Shown: positions 37,218 to 62,873 of the stretch, in pieces
Layout: every line of letters starts with the position of its first letter
Numbering within the stretch: position 1 is the first letter of the stretch
Assembly: GCF_013030985.1 (NCBI RefSeq)
Contig: NZ_WPYP01000011.1
Location: 62,001-126,000 of the forward strand
DNA length: 64,000 nt
DNA from: Ruegeria arenilitoris
Lineage (GTDB): Bacteria > Pseudomonadota > Alphaproteobacteria > Rhodobacterales > Rhodobacteraceae
Reading direction: 5' to 3'
Program-made: the position numbers and the translations under genes
Notes under the pieces: generated by a model
The model's input: the letters and a program-made list of their open reading frames with translations, nothing else
Databases searched by the model: none
What the model was told of the DNA's origin: nothing

Positions 37218-38308
37218 AACTCATTGTTTTCCTGTTGATGCTGCTGCCCGGAATCGCCACTGCTGGTGCGATCCGCCTGAAAGACCTTGTGGATTTCGAC
37301 GGGGTGCGAGGCAATGATCTGGTGGGCTATGGTCTGGTTGTGGGGTTGAACGGCACCGGCGACGGGTTGCGCAACTCGCCCTTCACCGAAGAGATCATGT
37401 CGAACATCCTCGAAAGGCTTGGCGTCAATGTGAACGGCGAGGATTTTCGCCCCAAGAACGTTGCGGCCGTGTTGGTGACCGCCAGCCTGCCGCCATTTGC
37501 CCGGGTCGGCGGGCAGATCGACGTGACGGTGTCGGCCATTGGTGATTCCAAAAGCCTGTTGGGCGGGACGCTGGTCATGACACCGCTGAACGCGGCTGAC
37601 GGGCAGATTTACGCCGTAGCGCAAGGCTCGGTTCTGGCCGGTGGCGCCGTGGCCGAGGGCGAGGCCGCCTCGGTCGTGCAGGGGGTTCCGACCTCTGGCG
37701 TGATCCCGTCCGGTGCGCGGGTGGAGCGAGAGATCGACTTTGACCTCTCGACACTGACGCAAATGCGCCTCGCCCTGCGCGAGCCGGATTTCACCACCGC
37801 CAGCCGCATTGAGGTTGCGATCAACACCGAATTCAACCGGGCGGTGGCGATCATGCGCGACTCCGGCACGGTGGAACTGAACATCGCTGCAACGCAGGCG
37901 ATTTCGACGGCGCACGCATTGGGTCGGATCGAAAACATCCTGGTCGAGCCGGAAACCAAGGCCCGCGTGGTCGTTGATCAGCGTTCGGGCACCATCGTCA
38001 TGGGTCAAGAGGTCCGCATCTCGCGCGTGGCGGTATCACAGGGCAATCTGACCCTGACGGTCGAGGAATCGCCAATCGCCGTCCAGCCCAACCCGTTTGC
38101 CCGCGGCGAAACGGTTGTGGTCCCCCGCACATTCGCCGGGATCGAAGAGGAAGAAGGCACCGGACTGGCCGAAATCCCCGAAGCCACCACCCTGTCCGAG
38201 GTTGTGGCAGGCCTGAACGCGCTTGGGGTGTCGCCCCGCGACATGATCGACATTTTGAAAACGATCAAGGCCGCCGGGGCGCTGCATGCCGAGTTCGTGG
38301 TCAGATAA
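37214..38308 (+). CDS. flgI: Flagellar P-ring protein FlgI
   Basis: The 364 residues have a signal peptide (ending ATAGA), the N-terminal IRLKDLVDFDGVRGNDLVGYGLVVGLNGTGD signature and the C-terminal LGVSPRDMIDILKTIKAAGALHAEFVV. FlgI forms the periplasmic P ring, assembled by FlgA. It is the last flagellar gene in the window. Confidence 0.97.
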   Translation: MKLIVFLLMLLPGIATAGAIRLKDLVDFDGVRGNDLVGYGLVVGLNGTGDGLRNSPFTEEIMSNILERLGVNVNGEDFRPKNVAAVLVTASLPPFARVGGQIDVTVSAIGDSKSLLGGTLVMTPLNAADGQIYAVAQGSVLAGGAVAEGEAASVVQGVPTSGVIPSGARVEREIDFDLSTLTQMRLALREPDFTTASRIEVAINTEFNRAVAIMRDSGTVELNIAATQAISTAHALGRIENILVEPETKARVVVDQRSGTIVMGQEVRISRVAVSQGNLTLTVEESPIAVQPNPFARGETVVVPRTFAGIEEEEGTGLAEIPEATTLSEVVAGLNALGVSPRDMIDILKTIKAAGALHAEFVVR

Positions 38309-38318
38309 CGGAAGCCGC

Positions 38319-38346
38319 GGGGGCATGGGTCAAACGACCCGCGCCC
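38319..38346. terminator. Hairpin between convergent flgI and the DUF1523 gene
   Basis: GGGGC-at-GGGTC / GACCC-gc-GCCCT around an AAAC loop sits between the two stop codons. There is no T-run, so intrinsic termination is uncertain. Confidence 0.35.
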
Positions 38347-38994
38347 TCACTTTGATTTCCAACTGTCCAGCCATCGGCGAAAACCGTTGCGTTTCTCTTC
38401 AATCGCGTCGCCTGCTGCATAAAAGCCGTCTTCGACATTTTCCAGCATCGGGTCGATGCGGCGTTGCCGGAACCTGCGCCAGCGCACCCAGATCGCCCAG
38501 ATGATGGCAAAGAACACCGTCAGGAAGATGATGTTGAACCACGGGATCAGCCGGACATCGGGGCTGTCCACCGGGCGCACCGACACCACGTTGGGGAAAA
38601 TCGACATGAGCTGGTTGCGCCAGCCATAGTGGCGTATCACCACCCATTGCGGGTCTGCGGCCGTCGACACAAGATTGGTCAGTTCCGCCTGCAGGTTCGA
38701 GCTGTCGAGCTTGAAATAGGGCGGCCAGCCCCAGCCGGTATCCTCGTTCCGATAAACGCGCGGCTTACCGTTGGGGCGGAAGGTTTCGACAAAACGCACA
38801 TCGCGGTTGGTGGTTTGGGCCCCTTCCTGGCCGGTGTCCTGCTGCGCCCAGAAAATCGAATTCTCACCGAAATCGACGCGCCTCACCTCGGTTTTGACGA
38901 TCCGCACCACATCCTGCTGCGGCAGGGTGTATTCCAGCACTGCGGCGACCAAGCCCCAGAAAACTATGATGAACGCCCATTTGACATAGACCAT
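38347..38994 (-). CDS. DUF1523-family membrane protein
   Basis: The 215 residues have an N-terminal transmembrane helix (KWAFIIVFWGLVAAVLEYTL), a periplasmic middle (about 25-150, with WGWPPYFKLDSSNLQAEL and WVVIRHYGWRN), and a second helix near 155-175 (FNIIFLTVFFAIIWAIWV) followed by a basic tail. This matches DUF1523 of alphaproteobacteria, function unknown. It is the last gene of the ten-gene minus-strand operon that begins at 46163. Confidence 0.85.
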   Translation of the reverse strand: MVYVKWAFIIVFWGLVAAVLEYTLPQQDVVRIVKTEVRRVDFGENSIFWAQQDTGQEGAQTTNRDVRFVETFRPNGKPRVYRNEDTGWGWPPYFKLDSSNLQAELTNLVSTAADPQWVVIRHYGWRNQLMSIFPNVVSVRPVDSPDVRLIPWFNIIFLTVFFAIIWAIWVRWRRFRQRRIDPMLENVEDGFYAAGDAIEEKRNGFRRWLDSWKSK

Positions 38995-39005
38995 CTATCC
39001 GGCCC

Positions 39006-39272
39006 TCACATAAAATTCGTAATATAGATCAGCAGGGCAATTGCCCCAAGCGGAACGACATAGACGCCCAGCAACAGTTTCCTGCGAAAGGAGTTGTCGT
39101 ATTTCTTCAACCCCCGCGCGACAAAGGCATCGCGATCGCCGGTCAGCCCCTTCTTCTCCCAATGCGCGATCAGCTTGCGCCGCCGAACCAGACGGGAATA
39201 GATCGACAGCCCGACATAGATCACCGTGAGAATGATCAGCAGCGGAATCAGAAAGCGGATTGCAACGATCAT
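39006..39272 (-). CDS. Small membrane protein (88 aa), unknown
   Basis: Two hydrophobic helices (FLIPLLIILTVIYVGLSIYS at about 7-26; LLLGVYVVPLGAIALLIYIT at the C-terminus) flank a basic segment (RLVRRRKLIAHWEKKGLTG). The start abuts the stop of the DUF6638-like gene, so co-translation is likely. No family recognised. Confidence 0.8.
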   Translation of the reverse strand: MIVAIRFLIPLLIILTVIYVGLSIYSRLVRRRKLIAHWEKKGLTGDRDAFVARGLKKYDNSFRRKLLLGVYVVPLGAIALLIYITNFM

Positions 39273-40610
39273 TCAGTTCCTCCCAACGGCACCCCATGGC
39301 CCGACACGCGCGATGATGTCATCGCTGGCCCGGTCATTGCCGCTCATGTCCGGTTCATGGCCGAACAGCGCGGCGCGGGCGCCTGCCTTGTCCACCTGAT
39401 ACTCGCGCGCGAGGAAGTCGGCAACATAGGCTTTCTTGGACTCGGGCCAGGTGGAATAGGTGCTATAGAACAACTCCTTATGGCAGATGAACATCTGGCG
39501 CGGATCCAGTGGGGCCAGTTCCGCCAGAAGCATGTTCACCAGATCGCGGTTGGGCGTATCCGCCGCGCGCAGCGTATAGAAATAGGCCGGATGGTCCGAG
39601 GTGATGCGCGGCCACGGTCCGCCATCGCTGGCCCAGCGCAGCAATTGGGCAAGACCGTGAAACGCATTGGGCAGACGGTCGGCGTGGTTCCGGGCCAAAC
39701 GGCGCATGTCGCTGCGGTCCAGCCCGGTCAGGTCCACGCCCGCGTCGGCTGCGGCGTGGACGGTCAGAAAATCCATCTTCTGCTGCAGAACGGCGGCCGA
39801 GTTCACGCCGCGCGCCTCGATGATCGTTTCGACCAGATCGTTGTCGTTCAGAAATGCCGCAATCCGGTGCCGTTGCGTGGGATCGAATACGTTCTCGATC
39901 GGCATGTCATCGGGCCGTTCTCCCATGCAAATTGCAGCCGGATCATCCAGATCGGGGAACAGGTAAAGCCCGCCGAAATGCGCCGTCCAGAAGTTGCGCT
40001 GCTCAAACGCCGTGTGGCGCAGATGGACGGGGTTGCGGGTGACGTCGCCGGTTTCCCTGGCCGTCTCGATCATTTTCGCAATCAGCACATCGTCGAACCA
40101 GGCGTCCTCTTTGGTTTTGAACCGTTCGACCATGCCCGCCAATTGCTCGGCTTTGCGCAGGGTGCCGCCAACCGTGTCGGCCTCGATCTCGATCTTGCGC
40201 AGGTTCAGCAGGTCGCGTGGCGTGGTGAGTTTGAAGACCGAGTTCACCAGCTCTCCGGCCACCGCATCGGTGGCGGTCAGGGCAAACAGCTGCGCCTCGT
40301 TCATTTCGATGAATTCGCGCAGGATATCGCGCGAGGTCGAGAATTTGACGTTCAGCAAAGGCGCGCGTTTCTGCTCGGTCGTCAGCAGGATGAACTGCCG
40401 GTTAACCCCGTTGGGGTTAAGGTAGAGCGGATCGTCCAACTCAATCCCCACCTCGGGCGAATAACCCGAGATATCGACATGGAAATCCGAAAGCTGAGTG
40501 GTTTTGCCCGCCAGATGCTGCAGCGCGCGGTTATACCGCTCGACTAAGGCCGGGCTGGAGATGTGGACGAGGTTGCCAAACATCAGGCCTTTTTTGATGA
40601 GGCGGATCAT
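39273..40610 (-). CDS. DUF6638-like soluble protein, unknown function
   Basis: The 445-residue soluble protein has no signal, membrane segment or recognisable catalytic motif. It begins IRLIKKGLMFGNLVHISSPALVERYN and is rich in charged helices; I associate it with the roseobacter DUF6638 group with moderate certainty. Its ATG overlaps the preceding membrane gene by 4 nt. It is a conserved-looking member of the AAA+/TelA-like operon. GC content is like the genome, unlike the two small genes just upstream. Confidence 0.7.
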   Translation of the reverse strand: MIRLIKKGLMFGNLVHISSPALVERYNRALQHLAGKTTQLSDFHVDISGYSPEVGIELDDPLYLNPNGVNRQFILLTTEQKRAPLLNVKFSTSRDILREFIEMNEAQLFALTATDAVAGELVNSVFKLTTPRDLLNLRKIEIEADTVGGTLRKAEQLAGMVERFKTKEDAWFDDVLIAKMIETARETGDVTRNPVHLRHTAFEQRNFWTAHFGGLYLFPDLDDPAAICMGERPDDMPIENVFDPTQRHRIAAFLNDNDLVETIIEARGVNSAAVLQQKMDFLTVHAAADAGVDLTGLDRSDMRRLARNHADRLPNAFHGLAQLLRWASDGGPWPRITSDHPAYFYTLRAADTPNRDLVNMLLAELAPLDPRQMFICHKELFYSTYSTWPESKKAYVADFLAREYQVDKAGARAALFGHEPDMSGNDRASDDIIARVGPWGAVGRN

Positions 40611-40999
40611 ACTTCGCTCCCATTCGCCTCAAGACTGGCGCACTCAACTTCATACAATTTTCTTTTGAAGTAGGCGAATACTACGCCCGAGAATACCAAC
40701 CAAGGAAGCGTAAGCACGATTGCGCCAACGAACCACCACCACCACGCGGACACGACTTCAAAGTCCTCTGAGGCGATCAGAAGCCATGTCAGAGATGTCA
40801 TTAGCATCGGCACGATAGTCATATTTAATAATAGAGACCATCCTGCGATCGGCCCTAGTTCAAAACCCTCATAGCGACGTTCCTGCGCCTTATGATGCTC
40901 GAATTTTGTACGCGCAACAAAGTAGACAACCACCAAGCCCAAAACAGCTGGTAGGGCTAAAAGCAATGCCACAAGAGGTAAGGCGCTGATTTGACTCAC
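40607..40999 (-). CDS. AT-rich three-helix membrane protein (130 aa), unknown
   Basis: The start is GTG 40999, overlapping the previous stop by 3 nt (GTGA). Hydrophobic helices lie near 6-28 (LVALLLALPAVLGLVVVYFVA), 52-76 and 86-112, the last after a WWWWF run. Base composition is clearly more AT-rich than the flanking ATPase and DUF6638-like genes. The gene is probably part of an insertion into the operon. No family recognised. Confidence 0.75.
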   Translation of the reverse strand: MSQISALPLVALLLALPAVLGLVVVYFVARTKFEHHKAQERRYEGFELGPIAGWSLLLNMTIVPMLMTSLTWLLIASEDFEVVSAWWWWFVGAIVLTLPWLVFSGVVFAYFKRKLYEVECASLEANGSEV

Positions 41000-41445
41000 C
41001 CTTTCCCCTCCAAATACCGCCGCTTGGCCTCTTCCATCCGGCTTTTCTGAGCACTTATTCGACTTTGCAGTTCTCGCCGCGAAACAACGTCTTCAACGGC
41101 TGCGCGACGCCCTAGAGCGTGGTTCAATAGGCAGACCGCAACGCTCGAAACTACGAGGAGCAGTAGGAACTCAGCCCCTCCTTCAGAACCGGTAGAAATA
41201 AGTAACGCCCAGCCCCACAAACTCAATAGAGACGGAACACTACCGAACCCTTCCGATAGTATTGACGAAATAATGGCCGGTCCAATTGGCACGACAACGA
41301 ATACAAGAAACAAACTTACGAGTACCGCTCCCATTCCGGTGTGTTCGTCTCTCTTCAAACGAAGTTTTCCGGCGTGCCAACCCACAACCGCCGAAATCGC
41401 GACGCTTAAGGAGTAATACGTAACGAGCGGCAGAAGATCATTCAT
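40996..41445 (-). CDS. AT-rich membrane protein carrying a copy of the ATPase C-terminal tail (149 aa)
   Basis: ATG 41445 follows the ATPase stop by 1 nt, and the Shine-Dalgarno GGAGGGG lies inside the ATPase 3' end. There are about four hydrophobic helices. The last 11 residues, MEEAKRRYLEG plus KG, repeat the ATPase ending MEEAKRRYLEG plus N; the DNA repeat is 37 of 40 bases (41003-41042 against 41451-41490). The body is AT-rich. This looks like an inserted gene whose end was rebuilt from the ATPase gene. Function unknown. Confidence 0.78.
   Translation of the reverse strand: MNDLLPLVTYYSLSVAISAVVGWHAGKLRLKRDEHTGMGAVLVSLFLVFVVVPIGPAIISSILSEGFGSVPSLLSLWGWALLISTGSEGGAEFLLLLVVSSVAVCLLNHALGRRAAVEDVVSRRELQSRISAQKSRMEEAKRRYLEGKG
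41003..41042 (-). repeat. Direct repeat copy 1 (end of the 149-aa gene)
   Basis: A 40-bp segment coding for the MEEAKRRYLEG tail and containing GGAGGGG, which serves as ribosome-binding site for the GTG start at 40999. It differs from copy 2 at three positions only. Confidence 0.9.
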
Positions 41446-41446
41446 T

Positions 41447-43375
41447 TCAGTTCCCCTCCAGATACCGACGCTTAGCCTCTTCCATCCGGCCCATCTCGCG
41501 GACGGCGTTTTCGATGGCGACCTCGTCGCTCTTGTCGGCATAGCGGAACTCGCTGTCTGCGTAGCGGTTGATCTCCTGTATCACCATCTCAACCGTGATC
41601 GGCTGGCGCAGGTCCTCGATCATGGCCTTCTTGGTGTCGTAGTCGCAGAACAGGAACAGGTCGGGGGTTTCCATCCATTCGTCGGGCAGTTCGAAATCCA
41701 TCGCGCGGACCTTGACCGCGTCGGTGATGTTCTTGATCGCGCGACCGGTGAAACGCTCATCCGCCTGCTGGATCGCCTTGAGGTAGGTACCCAGCTTGGC
41801 GATCGTGTCCATCTGGCCGATATCGCCGGAAACCCGGTCATAGACCTGCAGCAAGGCGTCCTCGTGCGGGCGGGAATGACTTTCGAAACTGGCGGCGACG
41901 GCCTTTTTGATTTCCTGCGCGGCATAGGCGTCGTGCTCGCCCAGAGGGATGTCGTGGTTGCGGCCCATCAGCAGATGCAGGATGTCGATGTAATCCTCAC
42001 GCGTTTGCGGCCCGTCCACCAGAAACCGAGCGCCGGCGCGCTGGCGCAGGGCGTCGTCCACATTCTCGGGGTAGTTCGAGAACATGCCAAAGGTGCAGTT
42101 GCCACGCACGACGGTGTTGGCACCCGCAAAGCTCTCCATCAGCACAGCCGTGATTTCCAACTGCCCGGCGCTGGACTGCCGGTCGCCGCGTTTGCCTGCC
42201 AGTTGGTCGATATCATCGATGGTGCCGAAACCAATGACCGAGGGGTCGATGATCGTGTTGATAAACGCTTTGGCGTTTTGGCCGGATTTACCCTGATAGC
42301 TGTCGATATTATCGGTGCTCAGGTTCTGATAGCGGAACGGATAGCCCGCGTTCTGGCAATAGTCGTTGATCAGCCCGGCCATCATCTGGATCAGGGTGGT
42401 CTTGCCGGTGCCCGGTTTGCCGTCGCCCATGAAGGTAAAGATGAACCCACCCAGTTCGGCAAACGGGTTCAGGCGGCGGTCGAAATCATAGGCCATCACC
42501 ATTTTGGCCAGCTTCATGGCCTGATACTTGGCGATATGGTTGCCGACCACCTCGTTCGGTTTCTTGAACGTCATGGTCAGGGTTGTGGATTTGGCCTTGG
42601 AGGCCGGTTCGAACCCCCGGATCGTCAGGTCATCCGCCTCGATATGCCAGGCGGCGTTCTGGAACGGGGCCAGATGGCCTGCGGATTGGGCACGCAGTGC
42701 GGCCTTCTCCATCAGTTGCTCGGCATAGGCGCTGGTGGCCGCGATCAGATGCGCGTCGTCGGGGGCGTGTTTGGCCAGCGTCTGGTCCAGCTCCCACAAC
42801 GCGCCGTGCAGGGCGAGTTGACCATTGTCAGTCAGAACCTCTTCGATCTCACCGATATCGGCAGTGGTCTCGCCCAGGTGCGAGGACATCAGATAAGCCA
42901 GCGCATTGCCGAAGGTGTGTAGCGTGATCAGCGCCTCGGCTGTCAGCAGTTCCGAGAATTCGGTCTTGCGCGCAGCGGGCAGGTCCCCGGCCAGATTGGC
43001 GCGTTTCAGATCGGCCAGCGGGGTCTGTTCCGCATAGGCCTCAGCCACGGCCAGAGCGACGGCGATAGCGCGCCGGATCGCCTGTTGTGTGGTCGCCTGG
43101 GGCGGAGACACCAGCGCGTCCCCATCGTCCGACGTCTCGATGCGCTCGACCAGATGCACGCCGTCCGCGCGCACGGTACGACGTGTGACCAGCCCCGGAG
43201 TCGTAGATCGGAACCGTCGCCCGGTCGACACGCCCGGAGACCGTTCAACAGCGGCCTCAACGGGTTTGGCAATACGCGGCGCGTGCTCGAACCCGTTCAG
43301 CAAGGCGGTCGCAGCCGGATAGTGTTTGCGAATATCGTCTTCGCGCAATTCCATCTGATCTGACGTCAAACTCAT
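41447..43375 (-). CDS. AAA+ ATPase of an uncharacterised operon (642 aa)
   Basis: The N-terminal 270 residues are helical and unrecognised. The AAA+ core has Walker A GKPGTGKTT (about 319-327), Walker B IGFGTIDDID (381-390), a sensor-1-like Asn434 in MFSNYPENVDD and arginines 444-450 (RQRAGAR) as candidate fingers. The lid and tail follow to 642, ending MEEAKRRYLEGN. It is a cytoplasmic ATPase, possibly a remodelling or chaperone-type machine. Neighbours suggest that it works with the TelA-like coiled-coil protein and membrane partners. Specific function unknown. Confidence 0.85.
   Translation of the reverse strand: MSLTSDQMELREDDIRKHYPAATALLNGFEHAPRIAKPVEAAVERSPGVSTGRRFRSTTPGLVTRRTVRADGVHLVERIETSDDGDALVSPPQATTQQAIRRAIAVALAVAEAYAEQTPLADLKRANLAGDLPAARKTEFSELLTAEALITLHTFGNALAYLMSSHLGETTADIGEIEEVLTDNGQLALHGALWELDQTLAKHAPDDAHLIAATSAYAEQLMEKAALRAQSAGHLAPFQNAAWHIEADDLTIRGFEPASKAKSTTLTMTFKKPNEVVGNHIAKYQAMKLAKMVMAYDFDRRLNPFAELGGFIFTFMGDGKPGTGKTTLIQMMAGLINDYCQNAGYPFRYQNLSTDNIDSYQGKSGQNAKAFINTIIDPSVIGFGTIDDIDQLAGKRGDRQSSAGQLEITAVLMESFAGANTVVRGNCTFGMFSNYPENVDDALRQRAGARFLVDGPQTREDYIDILHLLMGRNHDIPLGEHDAYAAQEIKKAVAASFESHSRPHEDALLQVYDRVSGDIGQMDTIAKLGTYLKAIQQADERFTGRAIKNITDAVKVRAMDFELPDEWMETPDLFLFCDYDTKKAMIEDLRQPITVEMVIQEINRYADSEFRYADKSDEVAIENAVREMGRMEEAKRRYLEGN
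41451..41490 (-). repeat. Direct repeat copy 2 (end of the AAA+ ATPase gene)
   Basis: This encodes the same tail at the ATPase C-terminus and the GGAGGGG that serves the ATG at 41445. Copies 1 and 2 are 448 bp apart, in the same orientation and frame, and bound the inserted 149-aa gene. Confidence 0.9.
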
Positions 43376-43431
43376 TTCAAAACAGTCCTTGCTTCATCTT
43401 TTCGAACATACTCTCGCCGAAGGCGAAAACC

Positions 43432-44556
43432 TCAATACCTCAACACCTGTCCGGTCTTGCTGACCACGAACTTGCGTACATCGGCGAAACCCGGCGGGTT
43501 GCGTTCGGCCAGCACCTGAAACGGGCGCTGGGGCAGGATGATCGACCGCTGGGTGCGCGTCGCCCCGGTCTCGGCCCCCTGTCCGCCGAACGGATCCAAA
43601 GCGAAGACCTCGCGTTCGACGGTCGAGAACCACCCGGCGCGTTCTTCGATCACCTCTTCGCTTTCCAGCTCTTCCGTGGTCCAGGCCAGCGCCCAATCCT
43701 GACCTTCGGGTGCCTGCGCGTCCTCAAGCACCTGCCGCAGGGGGCCGGATTGCTCGGTATAGGCCGAGGAATACATTGGCCCCACATGGATACGGCGCAG
43801 ATGCTTGGGGTGCAGGTCGTCGAAATCCTGATCGAACCCTTTGGCAATGGTCACCAGCTTCAACCCGCCTAAGGACTGCGCCATCAGATGCGCCTGCACT
43901 TCGGGCCAGCGGCGCTGATCCTTGGGCAGGGCCGTCTTGCCGCTGTCCTCCAACTGCATCAGGTAGATGACCGGCAAGTTGATCTGGCTGTCATAGACCG
44001 CCCAGTGGATCATGAACCTGCGCCGATCCCCCTCATTCCCGATCCAGTGGCACTCGGGGTCGTTGCGGGACCAGAACAGCTGACCTTTCAGCAATTCCTC
44101 GTAATAGAGCCTTTGCGACAACGCGAATTGCAGTTTGGTGGGGATTTCCTGATCCCCGATGATGGTGCGCACCATATCGGTTTTCAGGTCATCCTCGGAT
44201 GGCATATTCGCCAGATGCACCTGCGCTTGCTGTGCGTCATTGGCCATGGTCAGCAACTCGGCCGCCACCGGAAACCCGCTGTCGCGTTTATCCATGGCGA
44301 GGCTGCCAAAGAACCGTCCCGTATCGCGTCCGACCAGCAGGTATTTCATGGACAGCGCACGGAAGGTGTAGAGTAATCCTGAGAGGTAGCGCGACACGAT
44401 CCGCACCTCTTGTTTGCTGATCGCACCCTCGGCCTCCATCGTAGCGGCCACGCGCAGGAGGTGGACGGTGATCACCTCGAATTTGCGGAAATAACGGCGC
44501 GAGGCGAAGGTGTCGGTCAAGCCGACATGGTCTTGGGTGGGGTCGGTTTTAGTCAT
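43432..44556 (-). CDS. Uncharacterised soluble protein of the AAA+/TelA-like operon (374 aa)
   Basis: ATG 44556 is used; it overlaps the preceding 76-aa gene by 8 nt. No signal or membrane segment. Helical N-terminal half (RYFRKFEVITVHLLRVAATMEAEG, LSGLLYTFRALSMKYLLVGRDTGRFF), then a mixed domain with RRFMIHWAVYDSQINLPVIYLMQLEDSG. No nucleotide-binding or catalytic motif seen. The ATPase gene follows 56 nt downstream. Not recognised; probably a conserved partner of the ATPase. Confidence 0.75.
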   Translation of the reverse strand: MTKTDPTQDHVGLTDTFASRRYFRKFEVITVHLLRVAATMEAEGAISKQEVRIVSRYLSGLLYTFRALSMKYLLVGRDTGRFFGSLAMDKRDSGFPVAAELLTMANDAQQAQVHLANMPSEDDLKTDMVRTIIGDQEIPTKLQFALSQRLYYEELLKGQLFWSRNDPECHWIGNEGDRRRFMIHWAVYDSQINLPVIYLMQLEDSGKTALPKDQRRWPEVQAHLMAQSLGGLKLVTIAKGFDQDFDDLHPKHLRRIHVGPMYSSAYTEQSGPLRQVLEDAQAPEGQDWALAWTTEELESEEVIEERAGWFSTVEREVFALDPFGGQGAETGATRTQRSIILPQRPFQVLAERNPPGFADVRKFVVSKTGQVLRY

Positions 44557-44779
44557 TTTCGTATTGCTGCTTAGTCGAGTGCCACTTTTGAGGCGATCCT
44601 GAAAACATTCGAGCAACTGCGCCGATCAAAGTGCAAACCAAAATTGTCCAAAAAGAATACATCGGGATGAACGCAACCGAACTTGGAGTAAGACCTGCCA
44701 AGTCCAGCCCTAGAAACATCGCGCAAATCAGAATTAGCCAACTACTCGCCAAAAACGTTTTTTGTGCAACGCGCTTCAT
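44549..44779 (-). CDS. AT-rich small membrane protein (76 aa), unknown
   Basis: There are two hydrophobic helices (TFLASSWLILICAMFLGLDL and FWTILVCTLIGAVARMF). It abuts the 109-aa gene stop and overlaps the next ATG. AT-rich relative to neighbours. No family recognised; together with the 109-aa gene it looks inserted. Confidence 0.7.
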   Translation of the reverse strand: MKRVAQKTFLASSWLILICAMFLGLDLAGLTPSSVAFIPMYSFWTILVCTLIGAVARMFSGSPQKWHSTKQQYEND

Positions 44780-45109
44780 TTATTCACCTTGCCGTTTGAT
44801 TTCTTTCTGATCGAACATCTCCCTTTTGACCCAAGCCAGTATCCAGAAACTCAAACCAAACAAGACAACGATGAAAAGAGCATAGCGTGCTAGGAAGTAC
44901 AGCCAGAACTGCCAGATAGACACTGAAACCCAATGCTCCTGCGGATCTCGAATGAGCAATTCGTAGCCCGCACCGAGTTCTCGATGATCCAACACAACCC
45001 CGCCGATCAGCATGTTAGACATCACGAAGAATGCGAGAAGCCCCCAAACCACAAAGGTACTGGAACGACCAGTTCTTAACGCCTTACCTACCATACAAAT
45101 TTTTATCAT
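44780..45109 (-). CDS. AT-rich membrane protein (109 aa), unknown
   Basis: ATG 45109 (GAGAAG upstream) lies inside the last codons of the coiled-coil gene, overlapping it by 26 nt; ATG 45094 is an alternative. Two transmembrane helices (FVVWGLLAFFVMSNMLIGGVV; FLARYALFIVVLFGLSFWILAW) flank a polar loop. Base composition becomes AT-rich right at this junction. Function unknown. Confidence 0.68.
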   Translation of the reverse strand: MIKICMVGKALRTGRSSTFVVWGLLAFFVMSNMLIGGVVLDHRELGAGYELLIRDPQEHWVSVSIWQFWLYFLARYALFIVVLFGLSFWILAWVKREMFDQKEIKRQGE

Positions 45110-61520: not shown

Positions 61521-62873
61521 TCACTCTTTGGCGACCTGTTGCGCGTCTGCGCTGTCGGACAACAGCCGAACTTCGCGCTGCGGGAAGGGGATCGAGATGC
61601 TTTCGTCCTTAAAGGCGTCCCATAGTGCAAGATAGACATTGCCCCGAATATTGGTCAGCCCCTTGGTCGGATCGCTGATCCAGAAACGCAGCACATAGTC
61701 CACACTGCTGTCGCCGAAGCCGGTGATGTGACAGACAGGCTCATGGGAACCGCCGCTCAATACACGGGTGACGGATTTGACCGCTTTGATCGCCGTGGCC
61801 CTTACCTTGTGCGGGTCGTCGTCATAGCTGGTGCCGAACTCCAGATCCAGCCGCACGAACTTGTCCGAATGCGACCAGTTCACCACCTGATTGGTGATCA
61901 GATCTTCGTTCGGGATCAGGTACTCCCGCCCGTCCCGCGTGACCACCGAGACATAGCGGGCGCCCAGCGCGTTGATCCATCCGAACGTATCGCCCAACGA
62001 GATCACGTCGCCCGGCTTGATCGACCGGTCCATCAGGATGATGATCCCCGAGATCAGGTTCGATACCACCTTTTGCAGCCCGAAACCAATCCCCACACCG
62101 ATCGCACCGGACAGCAGCGCGATCCCGGTCAGGTCGAACCCAAGCGTGCGGATGGCCGCCAGAAAGACCGCGCCATACAGCAGCACCTGAATGCCCTTGG
62201 CCAGCAGCACCTGCATCGACGGGGTGATGTCATCATTGCTCATCAACCCCCGTTCGGCGGCGCGGGTGCCGACACGGGCCAGCGTCAGCAGGACACCGAT
62301 CAGCAAGATCGCCTTGAGAATCCCCAGCGCCGAGATGTGCAGATCGCCAATGGAAATCGCCACGCCGTCCAGAAACTCGGCCACGTCATCGGTCAGATTC
62401 AGGGCCACAAGCGTTGCATAGACCCACATTGCCCATTTGAAGATGCGCCGCAGGGTCCGGTTGCGCACCAGCCGCGCCACCAGCGCAATGGCCAGCCACG
62501 CCAGGGCCAAAGTCGCCACAACACCGATGATATAACTGCGCGAGGGCCATGTGATCTGCTGCATCAACAGATACAGCGCCCAGGACAACAGCACGAAATA
62601 GACCAGCGTCAGGCGCTGCATCAGTTGCACCAGAATCCGCAATCGCCATTTCGGCCAACCTTCGCGGGCACGGGCCCAGGCCTCCCACCGGCCTTGTGTC
62701 GTCAGCTTCAGAACAAAGGCCAGCGCCCACAGGCCCAGAATGATAACCAATTGGTGCTGACGCCAGCCCGGCGTGACGACCAGCTCGACAAGGTTTTCGA
62801 TTTGCACGGAAAAGCCCGCGACCATGTTGTCATAGAGGTCCGACAGCGAGCTGGGGATCAGATCCTGATTCAT
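61521..62873 (-). CDS. MscS-family mechanosensitive channel
   Basis: The 450 residues have several N-terminal membrane helices and then the MscS core near 255-430: GAIGVGIGFGLQKVVSNLISGIIILMDRSIKPGDVISLGD, RDGREYLIPNEDLITNQVVNWS and a C-terminal cytoplasmic alpha/beta domain ending IPFPQREVRLL. The extended N-terminus makes it larger than E. coli MscS. It is probably involved in osmotic protection. Confidence 0.92.
   Translation of the reverse strand: MNQDLIPSSLSDLYDNMVAGFSVQIENLVELVVTPGWRQHQLVIILGLWALAFVLKLTTQGRWEAWARAREGWPKWRLRILVQLMQRLTLVYFVLLSWALYLLMQQITWPSRSYIIGVVATLALAWLAIALVARLVRNRTLRRIFKWAMWVYATLVALNLTDDVAEFLDGVAISIGDLHISALGILKAILLIGVLLTLARVGTRAAERGLMSNDDITPSMQVLLAKGIQVLLYGAVFLAAIRTLGFDLTGIALLSGAIGVGIGFGLQKVVSNLISGIIILMDRSIKPGDVISLGDTFGWINALGARYVSVVTRDGREYLIPNEDLITNQVVNWSHSDKFVRLDLEFGTSYDDDPHKVRATAIKAVKSVTRVLSGGSHEPVCHITGFGDSSVDYVLRFWISDPTKGLTNIRGNVYLALWDAFKDESISIPFPQREVRLLSDSADAQQVAKE

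Follow-up and report, generated by a model that had tools for sequence, protein, structure and literature searches.

The 64,000-nucleotide stretch of the Ruegeria arenilitoris genome analyzed here (the window; positions 62,001 to 126,000 of contig NZ_WPYP01000011.1, assembly GCF_013030985.1) contains a conserved operon in which the 3′ end of a gene for an AAA+ ATPase occurs twice. One copy is in its own place; the other, 40 nt long, lies between two small genes for predicted membrane proteins, cargo A and cargo B, which are found between the ATPase gene and a gene for a DUF6638 protein. This second tail is very probably a recombination scar, at which two versions of a hypervariable gene slot were joined within the conserved operon. 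Cargo exchange, of which the repeat would be a by-product, explains it best, rather than a purpose-built insertion mechanism.

The repeat itself is as the initial annotation had described it: the two copies (coordinates in Table 1) agree at 37 of 40 bases, both encode MEEAKRRYLEG, and both contain GGAGGGG shortly 5′ of a start codon. A 27-base tail pattern, with up to three mismatches allowed, is found at these two places only in the 4.76-Mb genome, and the same pattern reversed, as a control, has no match in it. When the ATPase 3′ end was compared without gaps to its own slot, the match score of the window was 31, against a maximum of 14 among 168 codon-shuffled controls. None of the inverted repeats of at least 20 nt reported for positions 38000-45000 has an arm in the slot.

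The nature of the second copy becomes apparent from locus L043, in which the sole cargo gene of the slot, L043_1, is 70% identical to cargo A and has a different C-terminus. In the window, the second tail replaces that C-terminus and is fused in frame to cargo A. Tail copy 2 is thus a joint and not the flank of an intact insert, and the earlier view that the two copies bracket an inserted gene does not hold. The joint falls in a short stretch that the tail has in common with the L043 cargo gene's end (13 of 16 nt identical), as in an illegitimate or short-homology crossover; the joints of three further second tails, described below, were inspected only. The ATPase of L043 ends in RRFRKELE, with a 2-base gap relative to the window, and the cargo start is retained there. 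Cargo A and cargo B are separate cargo genes in a hypervariable slot. Relatives of cargo A occur in three other genomes among the 54 of the genus that were searched, and all four matches are located between the ATPase and DUF6638 genes; its ratio of nonsynonymous to synonymous substitution rates (dN/dS) is 0.39 over 132 codons.

The interval between the two flanking genes, referred to here as slot 2, was compared across 172 distinct loci in which both flanks are present. Identical loci were counted once, and a 100-base placeholder (L083) as well as seven loci with no usable DUF6638 start (L008, L121, L122, L130, L159, L160, and L172) were excluded; the 83 family genomes with a matching ATPase did not all contribute a usable locus, some at contig edges being left out. 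The 80 named loci of one search are the best of at least 580. Between ATPase and DUF6638 the gap is -4 bp at its shortest and 2382 bp at its longest, with a median of 687. The DUF6638-P88 and P88-DUF1523 gaps have medians of 1 bp (-5 to 197) and 10 bp (2 to 18), each in 96 loci, whereas the gap between P394 and the ATPase varies to a moderate degree, with a range of 15 to 510 bp and a median of 71 in 80 loci. Slot 2 holds 225 called open reading frames (ORFs) in 97 families, 69 of them singletons; non-homologous cargo thus occupies one site between conserved flanks. The ORFs are our own calls of at least 60 aa, with start positions that may be wrong (e.g., L075_2), and the families are single-linkage BLAST clusters, so that one family may mix architectures: of two members of family C1 scanned singly, L010 gave a putAbiC match that L033 lacks.

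Within Ruegeria, taken as loci with an ATPase identity of at least 89% (n = 51), 29 cargo arrangements were found, and no slot is shorter than 333 bp. The longest ORF lies on the operon strand in 49 of the 51 slots. The called start of the first cargo gene overlaps the ATPase stop by four bases in 27, and the last cargo gene overlaps the DUF6638 start by four bases in 35. Between relatives, the dN/dS of cargo ORFs is 0.10 to 0.56 in seven of nine pairs, the remaining two being saturated, and the ORFs therefore look like real genes. The mean G+C content of these slots is 0.487, compared with 0.608 in the last 600 bases of the ATPase gene. The inserted gene had been described as AT-rich; the slot of the window (0.51) is indeed lower in G+C than the ATPase end, yet it is not extreme. 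The Pfam matches obtained with 107 cargo representatives include neither an integrase nor a transposase, and no integrase was found in the ten operon proteins either (no model-based search for attC sites was made).

Empty versions of the slot exist. In L032 (gap -4) and L101 (gap -1), both outside Ruegeria, there is a single tail and the ATPase stop overlaps the DUF6638 start, which bears out the suggestion that this region is a site of gene gain and that relatives lacking the cargo genes would show one tail running directly into DUF6638. Slots without a called ORF of 60 aa number 14 of 172, none of them in Ruegeria. Further away, an alphaproteobacterium of another family (G459) has P359, P394, ATPase, DUF6638, and DUF1523 in this order with the slot genes absent; the P359-P394 gap is 67 bp and the ATPase-DUF6638 gap 8 bp. 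This compact core operon (L224, 4935-11234) is a likely outgroup state. In the class-wide sample that includes G459, DUF6638 was above the cut-off in 5 of 289 genomes.

Second tails are rare. The tail test covered 168 of the 172 slots, the four shorter than 60 bp being left out, and detected a second tail in four: the window, L070, L071, and L075. Their lengths are 40, 95, 104, and 144 nt, with the left end common to L070 and L071, and these unequal lengths do not correspond to a constant target-site duplication, which was rejected for this reason. In a comparison with 179 tails, all four match the ATPase ends of other species better than their own. The best match of the window copy has 0 mismatches, against 3 for its own ATPase, which ranks 38th; the copy is identical to the ATPase tails of six other Ruegeria. 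The corresponding values are 9 against 13 mismatches in L070 (own rank 29th), 10 against 15 in L071 (45th), and 8 against 13 in L075 (28th). When third-position differences were checked for known variants, moderate results were obtained for L070 (6/6, P 0.02) and L075 (9/10, P 0.02).

The origin of the second tail is clearest in L071. A 46-nt segment comprising the end of its second tail and the start of the Mrr-type gene that follows differs at 3, 4, and 6 positions from L045, L074, and L035, in which this gene comes immediately after the ATPase, and at 26 positions from the L071 ATPase end. The encoded protein ends agree with this: GKNID, GKNFD, and GKNIG in the group of L045, L074, and L035, GKNIE in the second tail of L071, and GKG in the L071 ATPase. 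A GKN-type ending is not exclusive to Mrr slots, being found also in L037 and L094, which have no Mrr gene; L028, an Mrr slot of another genus, has an ATPase without it. From these sequences, the second tail and the downstream gene of L071 clearly came together from another genome. In addition, the joint occupies one and the same position in L070 and L071. Their spacers agree at 33 of 34 bases, and the two scars have alleles in common (alignment positions 193 and 211) that are absent from the 50 other ATPase ends. The genes behind this joint differ, encoding 171 aa in L070 and 301 aa in L071, which indicates a renewed exchange of cargo behind the scar. The initial annotation had anticipated that different cargo would be found between the same repeats, and this pair of loci is such a case.

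All four second tails are open in the ATPase frame, and decay of the copies outside the window was dropped as an idea for this reason. The frame of the window copy runs on from cargo A as a fusion. Those of L070 and L071 form a small ORF whose ATG overlaps the upstream stop, and in L075 an ATG is located after the upstream stop. Random change would leave each tail open with a chance of 0.61 to 0.86, so the open frames are suggestive only. With the ribosome-binding site of the next gene lying in the tail, these frames fit the earlier proposal that downstream translation is kept, to that suggestive degree.

The flanking core genes provide a further line of evidence. Divergence at fourfold-degenerate sites was determined by gene window in 23 Ruegeria. 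It is high in the FlgI-like gene beyond the operon (0.59-0.69), in P88 (0.49-0.52), and in DUF1523 (0.46-0.60). In DUF6638 it falls from 0.51 at the 3′ end to 0.129 at the 5′ end beside slot 2, and in the ATPase gene from 0.50 in the 5′ part to 0.192 and 0.129 in the last two windows. Beside slot 1, a second slot located upstream, it is 0.235 at the P394 start and 0.20-0.22 at the P359 end. The trend at slot 2 was repeated in the 51 Ruegeria. A sign of recombination, namely a fourfold minimum beside both slots, is therefore present in the flanks in this genus. Cargo sharing does not follow ATPase identity, with means of 0.885 and 0.884.

In the mechanism favoured here, small cargo genes occupy a hypervariable slot within the conserved co-directional operon and very probably move between species when the core genes on either side recombine. 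The ATPase 3′ end contains the Shine-Dalgarno site and the stop codon that the first cargo gene uses, and is therefore carried along when cargo moves. For the window, a donor segment consisting of ATPase tail, cargo B, and DUF6638 would have been taken up into a chromosome with the arrangement ATPase, cargo A, and DUF6638, which L043 still has. One crossover presumably took place by ordinary homology in or beyond DUF6638, and the other would have occurred where the end of cargo A and the tail match imperfectly over 16 nt. The outcome would be two stacked cargo genes with the second tail between them and translation coupling kept. This order of events, the crossover in DUF6638, and the way in which donor DNA entered are inferred; what the sequences show is the variability of the slot, its empty versions, the joint as seen against L043, the common arrival of tail and cargo in L071, two different cargoes behind one joint, and the low divergence beside the slots in Ruegeria.

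Several observations weigh against this account. No donor or relative of cargo B was found: among 394 genomes of the family and 54 of the genus, the window alone has this gene. The DUF6638 5′ end of the window was traced to no single donor genome. The donor test of the window rests on three sites, and its third-position differences (known variants 2/2, P 0.36) carry little weight; the corresponding test is also weak for L071 (7/9, P 0.12). Flank identity is no higher between genomes with common cargo. As for the divergence minimum, codons 501-550 of the ATPase, though close to the slot, have a value of 0.307. Three small sets from other genera show the minimum weakly or on one side only, and stronger synonymous constraint near the slots could in principle be its cause.

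Among the alternatives, duplication of the tail in situ by slippage or unequal crossover, followed by divergence and without any donor, is unlikely, yet it fares best. The copies in the window differ at only 3 of 40 sites, and at two of these the allele of the window's own ATPase is rare (3 of 50 others) or private, so that later change in that gene could explain those differences. Conversely, the allele of the second copy occurs in other Ruegeria at all three differing sites, and different cargo behind one joint needs a further exchange in any case. The second-tail end of L071, with 40-43 of 46 positions identical to three Mrr-slot genomes and only 20 identical to the ATPase end of L071 itself, is hard to reconcile with a local duplication.

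The insertion hypothesis of the initial annotation, in which a mobile element or dedicated mechanism placed cargo A in the operon, duplicated the ATPase tail as its target, and rebuilt the ribosome-binding site, has a small probability. It would account for an in-frame second tail with a usable Shine-Dalgarno site after cargo A, and the empty sites and the open frames are in keeping with it. Against a mechanism of this kind speak the unequal copy lengths, the loss at the joint of the C-terminus that cargo A has in L043, the absence of a second tail from all but 4 of 168 slots, and the lack of a reported inverted repeat with an arm in the slot. The second tails are, moreover, closer to ATPase ends of other species, most clearly in L071.

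That the tail is a functional C-terminal peptide of the ATPase and its partner proteins, selected at the protein level, is highly improbable: the peptide is conserved across the ATPases of the genus, the window copy continues the cargo A frame and the other three are open as small separate ORFs, yet the copy is unjoined to a cargo protein in L070, L071, and L075 (a common protein motif was rejected on this ground), the cargo A homologue of L043 lacks the peptide, and 164 of 168 slots have no copy by the tail test.

The operon runs on the minus strand in the order P359, slot 1, P394, AAA+ ATPase, slot 2, DUF6638, P88, and DUF1523 (Table 1); the gene beyond DUF1523 we take to be flagellar and FlgI-like from reading its sequence. 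The ATPase was found in 51 of 54 genus genomes and in 83 of 198 family genomes (82 of 197 genera). A PDB search returned the AAA modules of i-AAA protease, fidgetin, Vps4, and katanin (best E 1.5e-5), and the AAA module of the ATPase resembles those of remodelling AAA proteins. The P359 alignment (29 sequences) has a mean column identity of 86%, and domain and PADLOC scans of this protein gave weak coiled-coil matches only. AlphaFold2 models were obtained for P394 and DUF6638 with a mean predicted local distance difference test score (pLDDT) of 77.5 and 79.1, respectively. For P394, no useful PDB match was found by fold (Foldseek best E 0.21) or by sequence (best E 0.82); for DUF6638, no useful fold match was found (Foldseek best E 1.1) and the sequence search gave none at E <= 1. 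Profile searches with P394, DUF6638, and P359 returned nothing significant. The ten operon proteins scanned match AAA, DUF6638, DUF1523, and weak others only. Their PADLOC scan revealed no described defence system, the hits being weak ones to AAA modules (TRIP13, E 6.2e-6, and IetA) and to coiled coils, and there were no delivery genes of the VgrG/Hcp/PAAR type among them. The literature search found no publication naming DUF6638, and DUF1523 came up only in papers that, by their titles, concern other subjects.

Table 1. Features of the operon and its two slots (window coordinates).
Feature	Positions	Strand	Description
P359	45084-46163	-	Conserved coiled-coil protein; first core gene as described here
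Slot 1	44557-45083	-	Second hypervariable slot, between P359 and P394
P141	44780-45205 (ORF)	-	Slot 1 cargo; true start uncertain
P76	44549-44779	-	Slot 1 cargo, 76 aa
P394	43432-44556	-	Conserved core protein of 374 aa, counted from the ATG chosen; 39 sequences aligned
AAA+ ATPase	41447-43375	-	642 aa; PF00004, E 1.3e-11; left flank of slot 2
Tail copy 1	41451-41490	-	End of the ATPase gene; carries Shine-Dalgarno-like GGAGGGG
Slot 2	40611-41446	-	836-bp cargo slot between ATPase and DUF6638
Cargo A	40996-41445	-	149-aa protein, 3 predicted membrane segments; tail replaces its C-terminus
Putative joint	41027-41042	-	16-nt stretch common to the tail and the L043 cargo A end, 13/16 identical
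Tail copy 2 (probable scar)	41003-41042	-	In-frame fusion to cargo A; GGAGGGG serves cargo B
Cargo B	40607-40999	-	130-aa protein, 3 predicted membrane segments; GTG start overlaps cargo A end by 4 bases
DUF6638 protein	39273-40610	-	PF20343, E 1.2e-225; right flank of slot 2
P88	39006-39272	-	Small hydrophobic protein
DUF1523 protein	38347-38994	-	PF07509, E 2e-73; last core gene

Slot 1 is variable as well: in 79 loci, P359 and P394 lie between -10 and 774 bp apart. The small proteins encoded there differ from locus to locus and are often hydrophobic, and P76 matches only itself in 102 loci.

Most of the small cargo of slot 2 is predicted to be membrane-bound. Among called ORFs of at most 160 aa, 102 of 142 have two or more membrane segments according to a simple hydropathy rule. 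Some families, such as that of cargo A, were seen at this slot only; another, of 98 aa, has all 11 of its genus matches between ATPase and DUF6638. In L042, L044, L048, L051, L060, L063, L069, and L080, small membrane genes of families C8, C2, C7, C10, and C19 are present in varying combinations, as if shuffled. Ten larger cargo proteins were scanned singly, and five have a defence-type match: Mrr (E 1.2e-32), putAbiC (3.2e-16) with AbiP (1.9e-6), AbiJ_NTD4 (8.4e-9), DrmA-like (7.6e-9), and HNH (0.0011, under its curated cut-off). The PADLOC label PDC-S02 as an Abi family was rejected, since a single-member scan ties this match to the Mrr-type protein. The 107 cargo representatives yielded matches in 15 Pfam and 22 PADLOC families, with one member matched in each, so the defence label fits a minority of the cargo. 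The Mrr-type gene is more general: its four strong matches are in the slot, others that are weaker or split lie elsewhere, and 10 of 54 genomes have a match overall. In L028 (3435-4369) the Mrr-type cargo is split in two ORFs, suggesting in-place decay, and a relative outside the slot (G247:C9:35544-36393) is likewise in two pieces.

No published description of this locus was found in the literature search; parallels are available in other systems. In the type VI secretion system of Vibrio cholerae, effector-immunity modules are exchanged at a fixed site beside conserved machinery genes, and the exchange is proposed to proceed by homologous recombination; homology-facilitated illegitimate recombination, by which older genes are left behind in a stack, is proposed as a rarer route (PMC5361080). 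The likeness is variable cargo at a fixed site adjoining conserved genes. In Ruegeria, by contrast, the anchor is the 3′ end of an AAA ATPase gene inside an operon, the scar is a second copy of the end of this anchor gene, and no effector-immunity pairing is apparent. In the E. coli pan-genome, defence-gene hotspots between core genes are described as holding mobile elements, with a median occupancy of 8% (PMC10121019). Conserved flanking genes and a variable, partly defence-like cargo are features in common. The present slots differ in that one to three genes are tightly fitted, all 51 Ruegeria slots span at least 333 bp, and the Pfam matches of the cargo representatives include no integrase or transposase.

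A possible likeness extends to a constant core with interchangeable neighbouring genes. Defence systems such as CBASS, Thoeris, and Zorya combine a constant core with variable effectors. The core proteins of the present operon differ from these in matching no PADLOC system beyond the weak AAA-module and coiled-coil hits. As a tentative possibility, the operon may be a so far undescribed modular conflict system, in which an AAA+ machine encoded in nearly every Ruegeria genome examined controls interchangeable effectors from two slots fed by recombination. Its effectors would usually be small membrane proteins, and in other cases nucleases or proteins resembling Abi. The tight coupling of the genes and their conserved position suggest that the core may drive the cargo as effectors, and that the cargo would act together with the core ATPase.

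A locus with two recombination-fed slots in a conserved operon is a more interesting result than the repeat that led to it. The scars constitute a natural record of cargo swaps inside an operon, with downstream translation retained. If the slots feed effectors to the ATPase, many Rhodobacteraceae genomes would each sample a large pool of mostly unnamed small genes at a fixed address. New proteins active on membranes or against phages could then be found by a simple route, and what DUF6638 and its partners do would become testable.

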